Notes under the pieces: model-generated | The model's database searches: none | Told to the model about the DNA's origin: nothing | The model's input: only the letters and a program-made list of their open reading frames with translations | Position numbers and translations under genes: made by a program | Shown here: positions 37,629-39,099 of the stretch, piece by piece | Layout of the letters: every line of letters begins with the position of its first letter | Position numbering within the stretch: position 1 is the stretch's first letter | Source of the DNA: Pseudomonadales bacterium | Lineage (GTDB): Bacteria; Pseudomonadota; Gammaproteobacteria; Pseudomonadales; Azotimanducaceae | Direction of reading: 5' to 3' | Length of the DNA stretch: 64,000 nucleotides | Assembly (NCBI GenBank): GCA_023300545.1 | Contig: JALZVT010000002.1 | Coordinates: forward strand, 62,001 to 126,000

Positions 37629-39035
37629 ATGACTAACCAGCGATTGCTAAAGAATGCACTGCGCACCCTTGGAGTAGGCTTCGGAATAGGGCTGACCGCT
37701 CCGCTGCTTGCCCTTGAAGACAACACCAACACTCTGCCCAACGCAAAAGCGGGGGAGTGCTACGCCAAGGTAATGGTACCCGCCGAATATCGCGACGAAA
37801 CAACGACGGTTGTAGTTAAGGAAGCCACCCAGAAGGTGGAGATTATTCCAGCCAAGTACAACATCGTCGAAGAGCGTGTGCTGGTAGCCGAAGCCTCCAC
37901 CAAACTGGTGCCGGTTCCCGCCGTTTGGGGCACCGAAAAGCAGGTTCTGGAAATCAGCCCAGCTAGTACCTCCTGGGTAACCAGCACCCTAAACTCCAAG
38001 GTTGCGGTTAACCCCACTGTGTTGCGTGCCGCAGCCGACGGTGGTGTGAACCCGACAACCGCCAAATCTGGCGTGTGCTATCACGAGCACTATCAGGCTC
38101 CAAAATTTGAGAACAAAGCCGAGCGCGTTCTGACCGCACAGGCCTCCAACAAGCTGACCGTGGTTCCAGCCAAGTACAACATGGTGGAAGAACGCGTTCT
38201 GGTTAAGCCGGCCTCTAAAAAGCTGGTCGAAGTTCCCGCTGTGTACGAAACCGTTGAAGAGCGCGTTTTGATCGAACCGGCTAAAACCGAATGGAAGAAA
38301 GGTCGCGGTCTGGTTGAAAAGCTCGACGGCAGCACCGGTGAAATCATGTGCCTAGTTGAAGTACCAGCAAAGTACAAGGTTGTGAAGAAGAGCGTTGTGA
38401 AGAGCCCAGCGTCAACCAAAATTGTGGAAATTCCAGCTGAATATCAGACTGTAAAAGTTCGTAAGCTGGTAGCCGACTCAAAAGAAATTCGCACATCTGT
38501 CCCTGCGAAGTACGAAGAAGTAAACCGCAAAGTCAAAATTTCGGAGGCCAAATACGTTTGGCACCCCGTTCAGACCCCAGGCGAATTTGGCCCCAAAACA
38601 GGCAACGTCATCTGCAAGAAAGATATTCCGGCAAAGAGCAAAACCGTTGTTCGCAAGGTTGTGAAAACTCCTGCAACGTTCACCAAGGTTTCTCTCCCTG
38701 CAAAGTATCAGGTGAAGAAGGTTCGCAAGCTGGTCACCGACTCAAAAGAAGTGCGCACCAAAATTCCTGAAGAAACCAACCAGGTGACCAAACGGGTTCA
38801 GGTTGCAAACTCTCGTTTGGAATGGCGTTCAGTATTGTGCGAAACAAACATGTCTCGCGACGTAATCGCCCAGGTGCAGCAAGCACTGCAAAGCGCGGGC
38901 TTCGATGCCGGCACAGCTGACGGCGTAATCGGACGCCAGACATTGATCGCTGTTGATGCTTACCAACAGCGTAAGGGCCTACCCACTGGCGGCCTGACAA
39001 TGGACACCCTGAAGTCGCTGGGCATTCGCCTCTAA
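37629..39035 (+). CDS. Secreted VPAxY-repeat protein with peptidoglycan-binding domain
   Basis: A 468-residue protein with a signal peptide (about residues 1-29). Residues 44-404 form four super-repeats, each running from one Cys to one Trp: C44-W116, C150-W222, C241-W311 and C329-W399 (70-72 residues apart); a fifth Cys is at 404. Within each, P-A-x-Y motifs recur about every 23 residues (for example 51, 74, 97 and 246, 269, 292), separated by Val/Lys/Glu beta-strand-like stretches such as YNMVEERVLV. Residues 408-468 are a type 1 peptidoglycan-binding domain. It is probably periplasmic or outer-envelope and wall-anchored; function is unknown. The ATG at 37629 has AGGAAAA upstream; a strong terminator follows. 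Confidence 0.85.
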   Translation: MTNQRLLKNALRTLGVGFGIGLTAPLLALEDNTNTLPNAKAGECYAKVMVPAEYRDETTTVVVKEATQKVEIIPAKYNIVEERVLVAEASTKLVPVPAVWGTEKQVLEISPASTSWVTSTLNSKVAVNPTVLRAAADGGVNPTTAKSGVCYHEHYQAPKFENKAERVLTAQASNKLTVVPAKYNMVEERVLVKPASKKLVEVPAVYETVEERVLIEPAKTEWKKGRGLVEKLDGSTGEIMCLVEVPAKYKVVKKSVVKSPASTKIVEIPAEYQTVKVRKLVADSKEIRTSVPAKYEEVNRKVKISEAKYVWHPVQTPGEFGPKTGNVICKKDIPAKSKTVVRKVVKTPATFTKVSLPAKYQVKKVRKLVTDSKEVRTKIPEETNQVTKRVQVANSRLEWRSVLCETNMSRDVIAQVQQALQSAGFDAGTADGVIGRQTLIAVDAYQQRKGLPTGGLTMDTLKSLGIRL

Positions 39036-39068: not shown

Positions 39069-39099
39069 AAAAAAGCCCGCCTCGTGCGGGCTTTTTTTT
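39069..39099 (+). terminator. Strong intrinsic terminator
   Basis: AAAAAAGCCCGC, loop CTCGT, then GCGGGCTTTTTTTT. The GC stem of six pairs is flanked by A and T runs, so it can stop transcription in the plus direction and possibly the reverse. It ends the repeat-protein transcript 34 bp after the stop codon. Confidence 0.92.

Follow-up and report, generated by a model that had tools for sequence, protein, structure and literature searches.

PAxY-repeat proteins of Gammaproteobacteria: a probable long antiparallel beta-hairpin ribbon on a peptidoglycan-binding domain

Among described envelope proteins, Braun lipoprotein (Lpp) and Pal are outer-membrane-to-wall tethers that work in a way comparable to that proposed for the PAxY family, many members of which appear to join a lipid anchor to a rigid rod and a peptidoglycan-binding domain. 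Lpp is a helical trimer, whereas the PAxY family would form a beta-ribbon. Outer-membrane lipoprotein tethers carry a lipobox signal peptide, whereas no lipobox Cys is found in the signal peptide of the protein encoded in the window (the whole 64,000-nucleotide stretch analysed). The C-terminus of this protein, LGIRL, also lacks the Lys that Lpp links covalently to peptidoglycan, and Pfam gives no match up to E=1 to the OmpA family domain of Pal/OmpA-like binders. PG_binding_1 proteins, such as SltB3 and the N-terminal domain of SleB, resemble its C-terminal domain (residues 408-467) in sequence and fold; they carry enzymes or other domains, and none has this ribbon. The single-layer beta-sheet of OspA has a 23-residue period and charged, Val-rich strands, as in the PAxY ribbon, but OspA is built of local hairpins and the PAxY ribbon pairs distant super-repeats. 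The hairpin stems of pore-forming toxins (lysenin, aerolysin) show a weak Foldseek resemblance through their very long strands, which is not significant (E>0.005, rmsd 25-70 Å) and implies no functional relation. The tether role would be of a known kind. The ribbon architecture matched neither a curated family nor a solved structure, and literature searches by motif and by concept found no paper that describes it.

The protein of 468 residues is encoded on the forward strand by an open reading frame at 37629-39035, with an ATG start preceded by AGGAAA; all features below lie on the same strand. A Rho-independent-type terminator hairpin followed by a T run (39069-39097) is absent from a simple consensus terminator scan but is supported by folding (-19.3 kcal/mol, z=-3.3), in agreement with the strong terminator that the first-pass annotation had assigned to the gene. 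Neighbouring genes are not conserved across orthologs, with only local AmpD-like, UvrD-like or other genes present, which together with the terminator supports the single-gene unit also suggested there. At the N-terminus, the sequence and its comparison with orthologs indicate a signal peptide of the non-lipoprotein type (residues 1-28, MTNQRLLKNALRTLGVGFGIGLTAPLLA followed by LEDN; 37629-37712). At the C-terminus, Pfam places PG_binding_1 (PF01471) at residues 411-464 (38859-39020; E=3e-10, 40.5 bits against a cut-off of 23), and VIA-align matches region 408-467 to the PG-binding domain of SltB3 with Z 9.9. No catalytic domain is found in the ribbon protein.

Between these ends lie four super-repeats with Cys-to-Trp spacings of 72, 72, 70 and 70 residues. 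The core holds eight PAxY motifs, whereas none of 10,000 shuffles has more than two, and the self-similarity of the protein peaks at lag 23 and at lag 88, the latter corresponding to the super-repeat. The earlier description of four repeats of 70-72 residues with 23-residue sub-repeats is therefore accurate. Its inventory of residues is correct for the eight positions it named and incomplete for Cys404 and W100, the full set being Cys 44, 150, 241, 329 and 404 and Trp 100, 116, 222, 311 and 399. W100 is unconserved, nearly every ortholog having Tyr or Phe at this position. Super-repeat lengths are kept among orthologs without indels. Within a super-repeat, the PA/EA kinks are spaced 14-9-14-9-14; this order is palindromic, so that antiparallel super-repeats can set kink opposite kink.

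AlphaFold2 (AF2), run on the full protein with an alignment of 59 orthologs, yields 28 strands passing through all four super-repeats, followed by a helical PG-binding domain. Mean pLDDT is 72, core pLDDT is about 80 and pTM is only 0.36. The strands are 7 and 12 residues long, separated by two-residue PA/EA kinks, and their boundaries mirror each other about i+j 446 and 464. This prediction, with PG_binding_1, upholds the proposal made from the sequence, a beta-structured rod carried by a wall-binding domain at the C-terminus; the super-repeat as a self-contained beta unit is contradicted by AF2 and by coevolution. A lone super-repeat (145 aligned copies) is modelled as an extended chain, with pLDDT 78, pTM 0.17 and zero DSSP strands, and the strand partners must therefore be located in other super-repeats. 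Foldseek (PDB, viral models) and VIA-align return clear matches for the PG-binding domain only, the ribbon giving nothing beyond long-strand matches with TM-scores of about 0.1.

Strand pairing is revealed by coevolution, using APC-corrected mutual information summed per diagonal for every super-repeat pair in 82 and then 99 four-repeat orthologs. In the full set of 99, super-repeats 2 and 3 show an antiparallel peak at i+j=464 (z 7.3, p=0.001, column permutation) and super-repeats 1 and 4 at i+j=446/445 (z 5.6, p=0.001), with no significant antiparallel peak for any other pair. Lipoprotein and non-lipoprotein subsets give identical top registers, the 1-4 pairing reaching only p=0.055 in non-lipoproteins. 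The predicted bands have pooled z of 12.5 and 10.6 with signal in every 13-residue block, that is, in all six blocks of each ladder, and no coevolution appears for short local hairpins about the kinks (z 0.7). Charge complementarity is best at 465 for super-repeats 2-3, also peaks at the right register for two-repeat forms, and is second best for 1-4. Each super-repeat would be half an arm of a very long hairpin, paired with another super-repeat. Super-repeats 1-2 (offset 106) and 3-4 (offset 88) also couple in parallel and in register. This signal was rejected as a contact, because a linker of 17-33 residues bars the arms from pairing in parallel, and was taken to reflect duplication inside each arm. 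Direct coupling analysis of stacked single super-repeats gave noise, because unit classes were mixed.

Two full-length antiparallel ladders with no local-hairpin signal point to one very long beta-hairpin, and the four super-repeats probably form one continuous, two-stranded antiparallel ribbon on a secreted, wall-bound envelope protein (probability roughly 0.6). The difference between the two registers (~464 and ~445) is roughly the length difference of the two joint linkers, matching the expectation for one continuous hairpin. In this arrangement, the up-going arm A would consist of super-repeat 1 (C44-W116; 37758-37976) as its proximal half and super-repeat 2 (C150-W222; 38076-38294) as its distal half, both delimited by repeat anatomy, AF2 and coevolution. 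They are separated by joint linker A (residues 117-149; 37977-38075), which carries a short conserved helix at 129-137 in the predicted secondary structure and is also conserved in A2. A tip loop (residues 223-240, KKGRGLVEKLDGSTGEIM; 38295-38348), placed by low pLDDT at 226-239 and by the coevolution on either side, would lead into the down-going arm B. This arm would comprise super-repeat 3 (C241-W311; 38349-38561), whose Cys241 lies opposite W222 as judged from coevolution and Cys comparison, joint linker B (residues 312-328; 38562-38612), identified from AF2 and from register against linker length, and super-repeat 4 (C329-W399; 38613-38825), assigned by coevolution. Arm A would pair residue by residue with arm B, super-repeat 1 with 4 and 2 with 3, as two ladders of ~72 residues with the joint between them and kinks facing each other. 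At 0.33 nm per residue, each ladder would measure ~24 nm, with the hairpin tip at Cys241 and the base at Cys44/Cys404, adjoining the wall-binding domain. A common envelope family thus appears to use ladders of ~72 residues, a length that greatly exceeds the beta-strands found in familiar proteins. As a separate observation, linker A (37977-38075), whose conserved short helix shows the pattern PAS-ELL-AA-GI-L among orthologs, may act as a hinge or as a site for docking.

Mutual information is blind to the difference between an extended and a joint-folded ribbon. The same pairing (1-4, 2-3) could exist in a ribbon folded over at the joint, giving a compact four-stranded antiparallel bundle of ~24 nm instead of ~50 nm, and this is a real possibility, held with limited confidence. 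With 33 and 17 residues, the joint linkers permit such a bend, ~24 nm is a better fit to the periplasm, and a few top-ranked couplings connect residues near the tip with residues near the base (49-219, 248-391, 219-391), hinting at fold-back. However, the bands expected from this folding fall short of significance when taken as a whole (z 0.9 for 1-2 at i+j 268, z 1.6 for 3-4 at i+j 640), and relatives with two repeats, lacking a joint, are unable to fold over.

The hairpin is also reflected in how the family varies in length. For the two arms of 43 two-super-repeat proteins, the antiparallel peak falls at offset -92 (z 7.3); this sets the Trp of the tip across from the tip Cys, the same register as W222 opposite C241. 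Arm lengths among relatives are 72/70, 95/93 (36 proteins) and 141/139, matched and changing in steps of 23. The genome that carries the window protein also encodes a two-repeat paralog (G000:C78:22768-23904; L002, L100), a 448-residue lipoprotein that has a lipobox, a half-length ribbon of two super-repeats and a coil-like linker. The alignment of the two proteins breaks into three pieces: one covers the beginning of super-repeat 1, one runs from super-repeat 2 into 3, and one extends from super-repeat 4 to the C-terminus. This is the remainder expected if the middle of both hairpin arms were removed. Arms that change length in step could serve as a length-defined spacer. A ~50 nm, disulfide-closed, wall-anchored ribbon with arms of ~175 residues, growing or shrinking by matched 23-residue units as a ruler or strut of the diderm envelope with no described counterpart, is put forward tentatively, at nearly even odds. 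Unmatched arms are seen in two proteins: L139 (alphaproteobacterial-type, 434-residue open reading frame), with strongly expanded, near-identical PAVYG repeats in arms of ~10 and 6 repeats as counted by eye, and L207, with arms of 95/139, in which identical repeats may have been collapsed during assembly. Its sister L206 has arms of 141/139 with exact 23-residue tandem repeats.

Every one of 100 full-length four-repeat orthologs retains all five Cys, including 22 orthologs that came from the profile and not from the motif, and the four named Trp are invariant or nearly so. The first and last Cys are kept in 58/58 two-super-repeat relatives scored, while the tip Cys is replaced by His or Arg in 17 of these 58. 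A base disulfide between Cys44 and Cys404 (38838-38840), proposed from this invariance and co-retention, would be the simplest reading, although the pair sits ~3 residues off the exact ladder register. It would close the base that bears the peptidoglycan-binding domain. A joint disulfide Cys150-Cys329 is possible, and the tip Cys241 would be free or intermolecular and may cross-link to another molecule. The first-pass annotation had proposed the single Cys of each repeat for disulfides or attachment; a free thiol per repeat does not fit the co-retained Cys44/Cys404 or the dispensable Cys241. The odd number of Cys, leaving one for a cross-link, would also suit antiparallel pairing of two molecules, with super-repeats 2/3 and 1/4 coming from different chains, and mutual information does not separate contacts within a chain from those between chains. 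This intermolecular pairing is nevertheless unlikely: the tip loop of ~18 residues makes a within-chain hairpin the simplest path, and the first and last Cys of a chain are always retained together.

Location and function of the within-chain ribbon are read from the signal peptide, the lipobox and PG_binding_1 only. Of the four-repeat proteins, 40 of 99 have a lipid anchor, as do at least 30 of the 43 with two repeats; the anchor precedes the base mostly by 57-102 residues, so that in many orthologs the base would also bear an N-terminal outer-membrane anchor. With lipoprotein orthologs and a lipoprotein paralog in the same genome, a periplasmic strut or an outer-membrane-to-wall tether would be the most likely role. 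The window protein is likely wall-bound, and the lipoprotein forms likely connect outer membrane to wall. The ribbon would project from the wall, setting the spacing of envelope layers or linking them mechanically. What sets the wall-to-membrane distance thereby becomes a testable question in bacteria for which Lpp-like tethers may not suffice. A surface-exposed fibre or adhesin in place of a periplasmic element is improbable. Adhesins commonly have long repeat rods, and alphaproteobacterial-type relatives have the ribbon without a wall-binding domain, but PG_binding_1 sits at the base, and neither a known outer-membrane export module nor a conserved secretion neighbour accompanies the protein.

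A disordered, extended Pro/Lys/Glu-rich stalk, comparable to the TonB spacer, followed by the wall-binding domain, would agree with repeats rich in Val-Pro-Ala-Lys-Glu and with the extended model of the lone repeat; it is very improbable against sharp antiparallel coevolution over the full length, five invariant Cys, four near-invariant Trp and repeat lengths free of indels. Least likely are stacked short beta-hairpins or an OspA-like single-layer sheet with one hairpin per 23-residue sub-repeat, suggested by the period, the Lys/Glu/Val-rich strands and the AF2 list of short strands with two-residue breaks, and disfavoured by the strandless lone super-repeat and the lack of kink coevolution; OspA is also absent from the matches listed by Foldseek, which by itself is no proof.

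Proteins likely to share the long paired ribbon form an unnamed family that is widespread in Gammaproteobacteria and has no entry in the curated libraries searched. The repeat region gives no meaningful match in Pfam, NCBIfam, PHROG or PDB sequences outside PG_binding_1, the repeat region of the distant forms tested has no Pfam match, and plasmid and phage collections contain no family match. The first-pass annotation had assigned the repeats to no known family, and these library searches agree. A scan of genome contigs finds at least 578 related loci. Eighty of these were kept and include full-length orthologs from Granulosicoccaceae, Porticoccaceae, Thiotrichales, Chromatiales, Shewanella and Amphritea, and further orthologs in metagenome-assembled genomes labelled Sulfurovum, Sulfurimonas, Desulfobulbaceae and others (labels as given). 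A match at E<=1e-30 occurs in 44 of 369 sampled genomes of the window's class. The window protein shows every feature by which the family is recognised: a Cys at the base, PAxY arms of matched length, a tip Trp/Cys and a base Trp-x4-Cys. Distant forms from the same phylum include a 180-residue lipoprotein (L149) with one short repeat pair and PG_binding_1, and ribbons of ~200 residues without a wall-binding domain (L144, L152, L154, L155). Several genomes carry one long version alongside one to three short ones. In L169 (G950:C256) and L187 (G971:C1), one in-frame TGA interrupts an otherwise open frame, indicating a pseudogene, recoding or an error. In the Thiotrichales-type orthologs L033, L039, L041, L047 and L049, an AmpD-like amidase gene is located just upstream.
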